This document shows positions 41,230-49,334 of a stretch of 64,000 bases of DNA, one piece after another. Origin of the DNA: Galerina marginata (lineage: Eukaryota; Basidiomycota; Agaricomycetes; Agaricales; Galerinaceae). The position numbers were made by a program, and so were the translations under genes. The stretch is taken from contig JAECYW010000004.1 in NCBI GenBank assembly GCA_023014335.1, positions 2,356,001-2,420,000 of the forward strand, in the 5' to 3' direction. The notes beneath the pieces were generated by a model. That model did no database searches, was not told the DNA's origin, and saw nothing but the letters and a program-made list of their open reading frames with translations. Every line of letters starts with the position of its first letter. The first letter of the stretch is position 1.

Positions 41230-41324
41230 ATGCGTAAAAATTGACGATAGTATTGGGGAAAAGTGCCTAAGTAGCAGTACAAACTACTAAGGGAAAAACC
41301 TAAGACTATTTACGCGTATAAGGA

Positions 41325-41805
41325 TTAGTTATTATCAGCATCGTCGAGAGAGACATCCAGATGTAAACGGGCTTCTTTAAGCTTGGCGATTTCGAGAAGG
41401 ACGGCTTCGCGTTGGCGAAGATTATAAGTAACACGATAATTGTAGTCACTTAAATCCGCGCTCAACGACATAAGTTGCCTATCTACGCCCTCCAAGTCGG
41501 ACGGGAGGGAAGATGAAGCCGCTACTTCTTGAGCCTCTTGCAATGCTGATTCTGAAAGCTCAGAAGGAGTAGCCCCTTGAACAGAGAAAAATTAGTAAAA
41601 GGGACGGTTAGAAATAAAAGGTCGAATACGTACCGTCGGCGACGGGGTGGTTTGGCTTGGGCTTCTTGCTGGAGGGGTTTCCCGCAACAGTAGGAGGCTT
41701 CGTGGGTGCCTTGTTGAGAGAGAGAGATTCAATATCGAGACCAGGAATGGGTTCGTGAAATATAAATCTCACTTCCATGCTCTTCTCCGCAAGCTTTGGG
41801 GGCAT
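41325..41805 (-). CDS. Antisense cargo gene 6, coiled-coil-like C-terminus
   Basis: Minus strand, ending 96 bases from the end of integrase on the opposite strand. Exon 1 (MPPKLAEKSMEVRFIFHEP, to HPVADG) joins through a GTACGT...AAG intron (about 41633-41580) to GATPSELSESALQEAQE. The C-terminal half is heptad-like (LMSLSADLSDYNYRV, EAVLLEIAKLKEARL) and ends at 41325. Whether ATG 41805 is the true start is uncertain, because a non-autonomous Helitron has inserted directly in front of it. It may be the 3' part of the gene at 42718-43921. Function unknown. Confidence 0.55.
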
Positions 41806-41806
41806 T

Positions 41807-42717
41807 TTATGAGTCCTTTGATTTATCAAAGACTCATTCTTTATAAACCCAGAACTTAGTTGAGAATTTGATTGATTCATTCATTGATTGATCATTCAAC
41901 ACCGCGGAAAAAAATTTCCCAAAAAGGAAATTTTTAACCAAATGATTGATTTAGGTCTCTTGACCAGAAATCTGAAAAAATCATGTGACTAGCTATTTTT
42001 GTTCCTGAGATATTGACCTTTTAAGTCCAAAAATCACAAAAGCACTGGCTTTTTTCGACTTTTTTGCATTTTTCTCAATAAGGAAGGCAGCTAATCAGAT
42101 GATTTCAACAGATTCAGGGTCCTCAAATCATTTTCCACAACTTTGTTTTTTTTTTCCCAAAATGGTAATTGCCAAATTGGATAGCTTTCTAAGCATTCCA
42201 TGGAATACACAGCCACAAAATTGACACCTGCCCTAAAGTTCCCACTGTATATAACAAGTTGAACTCTGAAACTTCTTTGTATTGAAGATGGTCATTTGTC
42301 AACAATAGCTGATAAAGACTTGAGAAATTAGAAAGATTAAAATCTTGTACTTGCAGTATATGCTTAAATTAATTAACTTAGTAATTGGGTGGGTGGGTTG
42401 GCCTAATAACAAATAATTCTGATTAAAATAACTTATATTTTTTGATATAATCATATAGAAAAAATAAATTCTTATATTACTCTAAATAATTAAATTGTAC
42501 TTGAAGTAAGAGAGATTTTAATGACTTGATCATGATAGCTAGGTAGTTAGATAAAAATCCAAAAAAGGACTTTATATTTTAATAACTTGTAATTGTGAAT
42601 ACTACTTAAAAAAATAATGGATAAAAGTTTTAAAATCAATTCTAAAATTTGAAAGCTTTAGCTTTTGAAATTGAAAAGGACTCATACATGCCATGCGAAG
42701 CAATGGCCCACACCAAG
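41807..42717 (+). mobile_element. Non-autonomous derivative of the 8.9 kb Helitron
   Basis: Starts with the palindrome ATGAGTCCTTTGAT...AAAGACTCAT and ends AAAGGACTCATACATG with the hairpin and CACACCAAG, as in 49785-58640. The first 475 bases match the autonomous leader and the last 435 match its 3' end. Even the final codons (EDVICQQ and stop) remain, near 42290. This is a simple internal deletion with a CTTCTTT junction. It interrupts the antisense cargo genes of gypsy copy 2. Confidence 0.88.
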
Positions 42718-46847: not shown

Positions 46848-47144
46848 ATGGCCTGTACCCGTGCTGTAACCCGAACTTCGAACTGAAAACTTAGAAAGAA
46901 ATTCACAGAAAAATTTCGGCTTTTTTTTAAGATGATTTCAAAGCTCTTAAGTTATAAGAGTTCACTTCTATTGACCAGAAATAAAAGCACTTATTTGATT
47001 TATAAGATGAACAAGATAAAAGAAGGCTTTATTGCAGATTAGAATATATGACAAGGACTGTAGCTACTAGATATAAAAGCCTAATAAAATATCTAGTGCG
47101 CAAACTACAGTCAGGAAGAAAGAGATAAAGAAAATATAGAACGC
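46848..47144. other. AT-rich gap between cargo genes 1 and 2
   Basis: About 300 bases after the internal polypurine tract with no frame, repeat or RNA gene recognised. The ACGG motif is absent here, unlike in its surroundings. Confidence 0.4.
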
Positions 47145-48944
47145 CTAATACTCCTCGGACGGGATGTCTTCGTCACCGCCGGTGTACATATCGTCCGCGT
47201 CCAGTACCATACCCTCCACCATAGCATCAGACTCCTCACCGTCGCTTTCAACGGCCTCGTCATCGATGAAAACGGAACGGGGCGGGTCTTCTTCTTCCTC
47301 TTCTTCTTCTTCGTCGTCTTCATTGTCCAAAGTTGCGGTGTAGTCGGGACCGGCATCCACATTGTCGAACTCATGGTTGACAAAGACCCTTGCAAAATCC
47401 GCCAGGTAGAAGTCGTTGGATCGGAAGTAGACGGGGAAGTCGGCAGGGTCGGAGGCAGGGAACAAGGACTGGTGGAACTCGCTCCAGAGACGGTCAAGTA
47501 CGGTGCCTTCTTCGCCGACGAGTTGACGAACGCGAGAGAGAGGGTGACGGTGGATCATGTCGCGAATAATGGCGCGGCCTTCTGCACGGAACCGGTCGAT
47601 GTTCGTCTCGTGATTGCTTATGGCGGCAATGAGCAGAGCACGGTGACTAGATTCCTCGTCGTAAAGACGAAGAATCTCGCGAAGTCCTAAAAAGAAAAGT
47701 ACGGTTAGAAAAAGTATAAGAAAAAGTTAAAAGAAAACAAATGTACGGCAAAAAGAACGAGAACCAATGTCATACGACATGTTCTCAAAGCGAAAGGTGT
47801 TGGCGGCCGAGAACTTGAAGTCACAACAAGTATGGGACCGGAGGCAAGGCCCACAGTACTGATCCAGACCACGGAAGGTGCAAGGAACTTGACGGTTGTA
47901 AAACCGGCAAGTTTGACAACGAGTATCGGGCTAATAAGATGAAAAGACAAGTCAGAAAAAGAAAGATAAAAGAAAATTAGAATCTGACTTACCATCCGGT
48001 CGAGGTGATAGATTCGGTCCAATTCCTCCAAGGAAATCCGAGGTACGGTGTTCTTGACAGAGAGCACACCTCGACCAGGATTTGCCTTCAAAGCCTTCTC
48101 TCAAGCAGCCTGGCGTTTTGCGTTGGCAGGCGTCGCGGTACAGGTGCTCCTGCGAGTCTTCGGTTTTGGTTCGTCCTCGGCACCGTCCTCGTAGTCGTCG
48201 TCGTTGTCGGCTGGCGGGAGTTTAGAAGTGGAAGCCACGGGTTGAGGCAAGACATTCCGTTGACGACCTTTACCCTTCGATCGACTAGATCGTAAGGTAG
48301 GACCTGCTAAAGCCATATCTAAACAATGAGTAACCTAGATAAAACTGATAAAGAAAGAAATAAGCTAACCTTGGAGGTTGGGTGCACTGTCCATTTCGAA
48401 AGCGTTCGGATGAACGTCGCCACCTAAGTTGATATTGAAGTGGTCGATATCCAAAGGGTACAAGTCATCCTACAGAAAGAATACAAACGGTTAGTCAAGA
48501 AAAGATAGAATAAAAGAATAAAACCCGTACCAGGTTAGGGAGTCGTTCTGGACCGATAGGGGGAAGAAGAGCTCTAAAGTACGGGGCGTCCTCGATGTCA
48601 AGGCGAAGCACGAGCCAGTGAAGCCAGTTGCGCATTCGACAAATGTTGGCAGGTTCGAGGACATTGGGATCGGCATAGGTTTCGTACAAAAGAGCCTAAG
48701 AACGTATCAAACAGTCAGAAAAGTAGTCAGAGGACAACAAACAGGACAGAAGAATGGAAAAACTTACCAAGTTTTGATATTCGCGGGTCAAAATTGCCAA
48801 GACGGTACTACAATCCGGTACGGTGCCATAACGATCCACGAGGTCGACGGCGTAAGGCCAGAGCGCAAGCCAGAAAGAGGTGATAGCAGCGAGGATAGCG
48901 TCCGAGACAAGGACGGGAAGGTCGAAGTTGACGCGGCCCTCCAT
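47145..48944 (-). pseudogene. Antisense cargo gene 1, Cys-rich zinc-finger-like protein
   Basis: Minus strand, about six exons. The first reads MEGRVNFDLPVLVSDAI to LTREYQNL; the second ALLYETYADPNVLEPANIC to GPERLPNL. A short exon follows, then a basic/acidic linker (SRSKGKGRQRN, EPKPKTRR). An exon at about 47935-47765 carries CQTC...VPC...YCGPC...TCC, that is CX2CX8CX8CX2CX5CC, reminiscent of but not matching fungal Zn2Cys6 spacing. The last exon has a helical part (HETNIDRFRAEGRAI), HPLSRVRQLVGEEGTV, and a Glu/Asp-rich tail ending at 47145. A TGA at 48101-48103 (CGA in phase terms) interrupts the linker. A DNA- or RNA-binding role is plausible. It lies between two polypurine tracts. Confidence 0.58.
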
Positions 48945-49317
48945 GAGCGGTGAGACGCTGGAGATGATGGGGAAAGAGAGAGAAATGGGCGACGGTTAAA
49001 TACCTTGAGAACGTCACGGTCACCGATGACGAAGAACTTAGAAATATATTCAAAAAATTGACGGTGTTGACGCGGAAAAACCGATCACGGAGAAAATTTG
49101 AAGTGGGAAGCGCTGGGCGGCGTTCTAGGTCGAACCATCTTGGGCAAACAATTCCGAATACAGGATGACCCTGCACGGAACTGGCAAAAGCGAGTACCAC
49201 ATCAGTCGGTTTCTCACAGGAGAAGCACCGCAGACAACTCGGAAAAGACTGGCGCCAAAAGTCTATTAGATGTCAGAGACATGATCTGCCAACACGTTTG
49301 ACTGGGGACAGTCAAAA
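48945..49317. other. Upstream region of cargo gene 1
   Basis: About 370 bases between the cargo gene 1 start and the polypurine tract. It holds ACGG motifs and no convincing frame. It should contain the promoter of the antisense cargo if one exists. Confidence 0.35.
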
Positions 49318-49334
49318 TTTAAGTTGGGGGGAGA
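49318..49334 (+). other. Polypurine tract of gypsy copy 2
   Basis: TTTAAGTTGGGGGGAGA abuts the 3' LTR start (TGAAGGG). This is the expected plus-strand primer site for reverse transcription and fixes the LTR start at 49335. Confidence 0.75.

Follow-up and report, generated by a model that had tools for sequence, protein, structure and literature searches.

Five multi-exon antisense genes between integrase and 3' LTR in Ty3/gypsy retrotransposons of Galerina marginata

Genes on the strand opposite gag and pol have been described in several groups of retroelements. In fungi, Boty-like Ty3/gypsy elements of Botrytis cinerea carry an antisense gene, brtn (Zhao et al. 2011, as cited in passages of PMC7264820 and PMC8365987). 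In plants, passages of PMC11963269 describe conserved antisense open reading frames (ORFs) in the Retand lineage, within a region of 2.9-6.6 kb between pol and the 3' long terminal repeat (LTR); antisense ORFs are also described in maize Grande, rice RIRE2 and PvRetro13 (passages of PMC7264820), and 104 have been reported over representative plant elements. Moreover, the human T-cell leukemia viruses (HTLV) possess antisense genes, HBZ and APH-2, which are spliced, code for proteins and regulate sense transcription (passages of PMC3185765), and LTR elements of bdelloid rotifers have captured an extra ORF3 of env, DEDDy, GDSL and other types (passages of PMC5408684). In this study, a Ty3/gypsy element of the basidiomycete Galerina marginata was analyzed. 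It spans 30880-59935 of a stretch of 64,000 nucleotides (assembly GCA_023014335.1, contig JAECYW010000004.1, positions 2,356,001 to 2,420,000), which is hereafter called the window. Between integrase and 3' LTR, five minus-strand genes, G1-G5, were found with 6, 3, 3, 3 and 8 exons, respectively.

The locus resembles Boty in that a fungal retrotransposon carries extra antisense coding, but one named gene (brtn) stands there against five multi-exon genes here, a distinction drawn from the published description only. With Retand, Grande, RIRE2 and PvRetro13 it shares a long region between pol and the 3' LTR and conserved antisense ORFs, for which nuclear or DNA-binding roles have been proposed; these elements differ in having plant hosts, and the word intron occurs 0 times in the main text of PMC11963269 or PMC7264820. 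Like HTLV, the element harbors spliced protein-coding genes in antisense; however, passages of PMC3185765 give each virus one such gene with its transcript start in the 3' LTR, whereas the present element has five, and such TATA-like boxes as were found are located within the block. The rotifer elements are similar in that extra ORFs of LTR retrotransposons are common to several families, but passages of PMC5408684 describe no antisense gene block. Searches of the open-licence literature turned up nothing on this element and no fungal element for which several antisense genes with multiple exons were described. An earlier reading of the window, made from its sequence and hereafter called the original prediction, had regarded such a cluster as new for a fungal element; because Boty with its brtn is a published fungal example of a single antisense gene, what is new here is how many genes there are, that they are spliced and that they are conserved. 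To the extent of our searches, a strongly constrained antisense block of five multi-exon genes is new.

Copies and gene models of the antisense block

The original prediction had placed the block inside one LTR-to-LTR unit and asked whether other copies carry it with the same borders. In the genome (69.3 Mb in 43 contigs), the block was present and collinear in each of the four additional copies of the window element's subfamily, A, that were read from LTR to LTR (C12, C13, C34a and C34b), and also in copies of subfamily B and in the single subfamily C copy read. The LTR pairs of the four A copies were 100 (C12), 99.885 (C13), 99.943 (C34a) and 99.943% (C34b) identical. The flanking target duplication, predicted to be of 5 bases, is in fact of 4 bp in 5/5 A copies (ctgt in C12, ccgg in C13, ccgg in C34a, gcgc in C34b and TCGC in the window). 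C34a and C34b were 99.88% identical across 17,286 bp and differed in flanks and duplications, which indicated a recent move with the block.

In the three subfamilies, the block begins a short distance past integrase (95 bp in the window) and stops ahead of the 3' polypurine tract (PPT). The original prediction had itself raised a separate insertion with its own ends as an outcome to be considered. Such a separate mobile element, a gene-carrying DNA transposon or a Helitron nested in the retrotransposon, might be suspected because nested inserts are common here and two of them lie in the window block. However, no ends or terminal signature of its own were seen on the block, its borders are alike in three subfamilies, the PPT module of the retrotransposon itself occurs within it as a conserved copy, and searches with G5, G3 and G1 revealed no block outside Ty3 elements, two G1 matches being unplaced. 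A separate element is therefore very improbable.

A DNA search with pol gave 30 matches, grouped as 24 loci, and G5 exon 2 was found at 22 places, downstream of pol and on the opposite strand, beside 22 of the 24 loci. The distance between G5 and pol was 1.0-2.3 kb for 19 places and 5.6, 8.7 and 28 kb for the other three, one of which (C5:1911837) has a 7.6-kb interruption inside the block. G3 exon 2 was found at 22 places, with two weak matches elsewhere (E 0.09 and 0.19), and the cysteine exon of G1 at 21 places, 19 of them within 10 kb of a G5 match; all three place counts are lower bounds. As for the two pol loci lacking G5, the similarity of C7:688858 to subfamily A stops inside the last G5 exon, and the first element of the window (4245-13710) ends inside pol. 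Coding on the strand opposite gag-pol, which defines an antisense additional ORF (aORF-3R), was thus present in most copies. No free-standing source genes were established by the genome searches with G5, G3 and G1 exons. Separately, one subfamily B copy (C5:123001-130258; L024, L025) contains a tandem 890-bp unit in at least 8 copies that are 99.8-99.97% identical; the G1 exon at C5:86434 lies about 46 kb from the G5 of this copy, and if it is part of it, the array may reach tens of kilobases.

Full gene models were made for C34b (subfamily A), C3 (B) and C11 (C), with splice sites picked by hand and the three copies compared side by side. Since the window copy is damaged, the introns proposed from it were tested in these other copies. 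The positions in the window are as follows.

47145-48944, minus strand: G1, 6 exons (48768-48944, 48531-48695, 48370-48469, 47993-48318, 47747-47930, 47145-47686); stop codon in window; homologue P0003
45884-46648, minus strand: G2, 3 exons (46388-46648, 46146-46328, 45884-46090); intact in window; homologue P0005
44950-45690, minus strand: G3, 3 exons (45451-45690, 45186-45395, 44950-45129); stop codon in window
44176-44819, minus strand: G4, 3 exons (44646-44819, 44415-44591, 44176-44352); intact in window; annotated homologue P0006, of equal length
41325-43921, minus strand: G5, exons 1-4 (43778-43921, 43546-43722, 43427-43483, 42943-43364, the last with an insert inside); model lifted from C34b
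Same gene, minus strand: G5, exons 5-8 (42763-42885, 41773-41793, 41634-41709, 41325-41575); gene broken in window by two inserts

The order of the five genes was equal in C34b, C3 and C11, and exon counts and intron phases were identical across the A, B and C models. The predicted proteins have, in A, B and C, 499, 556 and 578 amino acids for G1 (6 exons, phases 0,0,1,0,1), 216, 227 and 230 for G2 (3 exons), 209, 210 and 218 for G3 (3 exons), 175, 171 and 178 for G4 (3 exons) and 291, 295 and 290 for G5 (8 exons, phases 0,0,0,0,0,0,1). Several exon lengths were also equal in the three subfamilies (G3 exon 2, 210; G4 exon 2, 177; G5 exons 1 and 4, 144 and 15). The introns of these models measure 49-85 nt and are GT-AG, except for one GC-AG in G1 of C34b. 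Chance is excluded, since exon counts and phases are alike in three subfamilies with synonymous sites at or near saturation. The multi-gene spliced antisense block described from the window thus proved real, with the same genes, exon counts and phases in three subfamilies. The exceptional GC-AG boundary, in G1 intron 2, occurs in both C34a and C34b; the same intron is GT-AG in the window, C12 and C13.

The original prediction had counted five or six genes, and five were retained. A model in which G5 was divided and a sixth gene began at MPPK was rejected: the B copy C3 lacks a start codon at that position, and the two frames are joined by an intron (58 nt in A and B, 64 nt in C). The annotated protein P0001 shows the same G5 joint, and its final residues differ. 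Annotated proteins of G. marginata CBS 339.88 correspond to G1 (P0003 and P0004), G5 (P0001 and P0002), G2 together with part of G3 (P0005) and G4 (P0006), and they have many splice junctions in common with the element models. P0003 matches the G1 model except around exon 2, P0006 matches both G4 junctions, and P0005 matches both G2 junctions and the first of G3; P0001, P0002, P0004 and P0005 contain discordant stretches (retained, fused or with different ends). The identity of G1 to its homologue was 89% according to the search table and 94% when aligned. In addition, a TATA-like sequence was present at most 120 nt upstream of the start in 7/15 genes, compared with 7% of 3000 random windows of the same DNA.

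Constraint on the five reading frames

The ratio of nonsynonymous to synonymous substitution rates (dN/dS) was obtained from NG86 counts on the spliced genes within subfamilies. It was at most 0.16 in 31 of the 33 computable comparisons (34 in all). Within A, the 17 comparisons ranged from 0.00 to 0.76, with 15 at or below 0.15; within B, 16 of 17 comparisons were computable, each at or below 0.16, and one pair was identical. For G1 of C34b and C12, 22.5 nonsynonymous and 94.5 synonymous differences were counted, a ratio of 0.06, with 16, 7 and 94 substitutions at the three codon positions. The sense frames (gag, the ORF in protease position and pol) gave 0.03-0.15 in 10 within-subfamily comparisons. 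Purifying selection on the five antisense reading frames is therefore of about the same strength as that on gag and pol. Furthermore, introns diverged more than exons in 7/7 comparisons (9.6 vs 3.8% for C34b-C12), and indels were multiples of three in 22/29 cases in exons vs 8/72 in introns (seven overlapping copy comparisons); two rows of this indel and divergence comparison are inflated by the G1 of C8, which aligned poorly. Between subfamilies, protein identity was 66-70% for G5 and 28-40% for the other block genes.

Despite their near-identical LTR pairs, copies diverge at synonymous sites of G1, by about 0.35 substitutions per site at most, which indicated that selection acted over past transposition cycles. 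All five genes were intact in C12, C34a, C34b and the B copy C3, four of five in C13 and in the B copy C6, and two of five in the window. In the B copies C1 and C8, G2-G5 were intact, and G1 was too divergent to be judged by the C3 model.

These data bear on three further explanations. The block could be passenger cargo, a host gene cluster captured once and carried passively without use to the element: five intron-bearing genes in a single orientation look like a captured genomic segment, and a distant relative, family D, is without the block. Nevertheless, the frames are constrained like gag and pol across successive moves, the gene set is retained in three subfamilies, and no free-standing source cluster was found, since the G5 matches, the 22 strong G3 matches and 19 of the 21 G1 matches lie with elements (counts that are lower bounds). 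We consider passive carriage unlikely in the extreme. The original prediction had spoken of cargo; the block is indeed carried by the element, but the constraint on its genes suggests that they are accessory to the element and not passengers, and the word is probably wrong. Alternatively, these loci might be retained by the host for a benefit that the antisense genes bring it, such as action against other elements, which would fit strong constraint on proteins unrelated to replication enzymes. The near-identical LTRs combined with the G1 divergence indicate, however, that the divergence comes from past transposition cycles and not from fixed loci, and genes are broken in three of the seven copies judged for all five; a benefit to the host has, in our estimation, a very small chance of being the explanation. 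Finally, the antisense strand could act mainly as RNA, through double-stranded RNA, silencing or interference, with the frames secondary. Antisense transcripts of LTR elements may regulate them, as discussed for plant elements in passages of PMC7264820, and roles of protein and RNA could both hold. A role as RNA would leave unexplained the excess of substitutions at third codon positions and the mostly frame-keeping exon indels, and it appears highly implausible as the main function.

The block is thus integral to the element. It is common to three diverged subfamilies, and its introns are copied along with it when the element transposes. We regard it as very probable that the block is a fixed accessory module of a Ty3/gypsy lineage, made of five genes that lie downstream of integrase, before the 3' LTR, and on the strand opposite gag-pol. 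This module would have been gained by a lineage of fungal Ty3/gypsy elements. Host RNA polymerase II would transcribe its genes from the integrated DNA via promoters inside the module, and the mRNA would be spliced. The sense genomic RNA would carry only the complement of the introns, which the spliceosome would not recognize, and therefore genes and introns would pass intact through reverse transcription. The products of the block would help the element rather than the host.

Several observations weigh against this interpretation. Expression and splicing of the block genes are read from sequence, and TATA-like sequences were not found in 8/15 genes, including all three G3 and all three G5. 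Homologues of the block genes were found only in Galerina marginata, two proteins per search in three protein searches, which reach relatives sharing exact words and of similar length (in one search, the best 8000 candidates were scored). No Pfam family reached its cut-off among the proteins scanned (G1-G5 of A, G1 of B and C, and G5 of C), and therefore every role assigned is a guess. The nearest G5 is 25 kb away from the G1 match at C4:1012032 and 46 kb away from that at C5:86434. Two comparisons of G5 with C13 gave dN/dS of 0.60 and 0.76, each on 2 synonymous changes only, and dS between subfamilies is 1.5 to infinite, saturated or nearly so, such that those ratios mean little and were unused. 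In addition, 7/29 exon indels are not multiples of three, partly owing to broken genes and to the poorly aligned C8 G1, and the broken genes of 3/7 fully judged copies comprise G1, G3 and G5 of the window, G1 of C13 and G5 of C6.

Five antisense genes in one element, keeping their introns on moving and under selection, can be studied as genes and not as leftovers, and the case shows how retroelements in general can carry genes with introns, namely by antisense placement. A broader proposal, to which we incline by a slight degree, is that the element runs two programs on two strands: a sense program for the copying machinery, and an intron-rich, multi-gene regulatory program in antisense that would be as essential as pol and would have grown by tandem duplication in the element, with modules being exchanged near an internal PPT. 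If so, the element would be a retroelement with a virus-like accessory genome of spliced antisense genes.

Internal polypurine tract, protein features and origin

The block contains a second copy of the PPT module of the element.

46811-46846, plus strand: internal hairpin and polypurine tract, with AAGTTGGGGGGAG at 46834-46846, between G1 and G2

Two occurrences of the 13-base AAGTTGGGGGGAG, one ahead of the 3' LTR and one in the G1-G2 interval, were seen in 9/13 scanned stretches (window, C12, C13, C34a, C34b, C3, C6, C8 and C11). C1 has the internal tract only, and the tract is absent from C5a, C5b and C7, whose stretches are interrupted or cut short. A hairpin precedes every tract, and its stem differs on both sides between modules (TTTGACTG...CAGTCAAA, GTTGACTG...CAGTCAAC and ATCAACTG...CAGTTGAT); the outermost stem pair is lost in the internal module of subfamily B. 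In the alignment of the G1-G2 intergenic region of A, B and C, the PPT module was the best 32-column window, with 30/32 invariant columns vs a median of 7/32. Central PPTs are known in lentiviruses and Ty1. The internal PPT-hairpin may likewise prime plus-strand synthesis at a second site, which would be useful to a 17-kb element, and we consider a second plus-strand primer a reasonably probable function. The conserved second PPT offers a testable handle on second-strand completion in an element of this size. Moreover, compared with C3, the G1 block, which occupies the interval from one PPT to the other, was 82-89% identical in C8 and unmatched in C1 at that setting, the remaining cargo being 97-98% identical; the change lies about 300 bp past the internal PPT, at the 3' end of G1. 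This pattern suggests that the G1 block was exchanged between lineages.

The proteins themselves give few hints of function. G1 has six conserved cysteines, spaced C-x2-C-x8-C-x8-C-x2-C-x6-C in A (C34b), x2-x7-x8-x2-x7 in B and x2-x9-x8-x2-x6 in C, together with basic stretches and an acidic C-terminal tail. The fungal Zn2Cys6 zinc cluster has the spacing C-x2-C-x6-C-x5-12-C-x2-C-x6-8-C. The cysteines of G1 resemble this cluster without matching it: x7-9 stands where x6 is expected, no Pfam match was found at E <=1, and G1 was not accepted as a Zn2Cys6 transcription factor. A DNA-binding regulator of element transcription or targeting is the best candidate role for G1, a tentative guess that was rated lower because of the departing cysteine spacing. 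G2-G4 may be partners of G1, or particle or nuclear-import factors. A single-sequence structure prediction of the G4 homologue P0006 (mean pLDDT 47, mostly helical) was too poor for a fold search, and a profile search of the PDB with G2-G4 gave one match (E 0.15), taken as noise. The antisense proteins of Retand differ in possessing a TRP28 domain (PF04195, according to passages describing that lineage), of which the block proteins scanned show no sign: no match at E <=1 was found in G1-G5 of A, G1 of B and C, G5 of C or P0003.

G2, G3 and G4 are paralogues (hhalign probability 97.5-98.6, E <=6e-12; 20 reversed controls at or below 3.7). For G5 and for the first 150 residues of G1, kinship with G2-G4 or with one another found no support: hhalign gave a probability of <1% in 7/7 comparisons, like most reversed controls. 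Family D is a more distant relative, its reverse transcriptase (RT) showing 63-65% protein identity. A family D element at C26 has LTR copies at 60160 and 69010, 100% identical over 745 matched bases, with about 1.5 kb between pol and the 3' LTR (the pol end being estimated from the subfamily A length) and without the block. A search for G5, with 22 candidates scored, gave no match in D or in families further removed, among which D was the family that was read. The simplest order is that the block was gained before the split of A, B and C and was followed by tandem duplication; alternatively, family D may have lost the block. In the family D element at C26, the interval from pol to the 3' LTR holds an ORF of about 200 codons in sense orientation (L034 738-1394).

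Layout of the window element

The element has LTRs of the form TGAAGGG...CATCTTA, its integrase stop lies at 41229, and minus-strand exons fill the region up to the 3' LTR start at 49335, with AAGTTGGGGGGAG immediately 5' of this LTR. The remaining features of the window copy are as follows.

30876-30879, no strand: left target site duplication, TCGC, read directly; same 4-mer at 59936-59939
30880-33865, plus strand: 5' LTR, aligned to four other copies; insert at about 32191-33428
34458-36122, plus strand: gag ORF with CCHC zinc knuckle (zf-CCHC E 0.0021, under the Pfam cut-off)
36125-37318, plus strand: ORF in protease position, in the frame between gag and pol; named by position
37964-41229, plus strand: pol (RT-RNase H-integrase), in two pieces in the window copy (37964-40276 and 40237-41229)
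41808-42717, no strand: nested insert, window copy only, in a G5 intron; resembles the ends of the Helitron at 49786-58640; absent from 4/4 other copies
42956-43361, no strand: nested insert, window copy only, in G5 exon 4; absent from 4/4 other copies
49297-49333, plus strand: hairpin and 3' polypurine tract adjoining the 3' LTR, tract at 49321-49333
49335-59935, plus strand: 3' LTR, broken by a Helitron at about 49786-58640; aligned to other copies
59936-59939, no strand: right target site duplication, TCGC

The copy C34b measures about 17.3 kb, and its three sense ORFs, which overlap, comprise 596, 415 and 1311 codons when counted from stop to stop. The type of ORF in protease position is open in C34a and C34b and in the subfamily B copies C1, C3 and C8. 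The top PDB match of C34b pol was Ty3-G Gag-Pol (E 4.7e-27, residues 228-668), with integrase matches at 897-1118, and the PDB matches gave the domain order RT, RNase H, integrase. Pfam revealed RNase H and H2C2 (the integrase zinc domain) and no reverse transcriptase family at E <=0.1 on C34b pol. Paired LTRs with a short duplication, a domain order closest to Ty3 and a PPT at the 3' LTR place the element in the Ty3/gypsy class, an assignment based on the PDB and Pfam matches of C34b pol, the LTRs and the PPT.

Two other features of the window were observed. The Helitron in the 3' LTR (49786-58640, about 9 kb) has an ORF at 50594-58231 of 2545 codons with DUF6570, Helitron_like_N and PIF1. 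In addition, a perfect inverted repeat occupies 25000-26659 and 28505-30164, with arms of at least 1660 bp and 1845 bp between them; it starts at the edge of the searched region and is perhaps longer.

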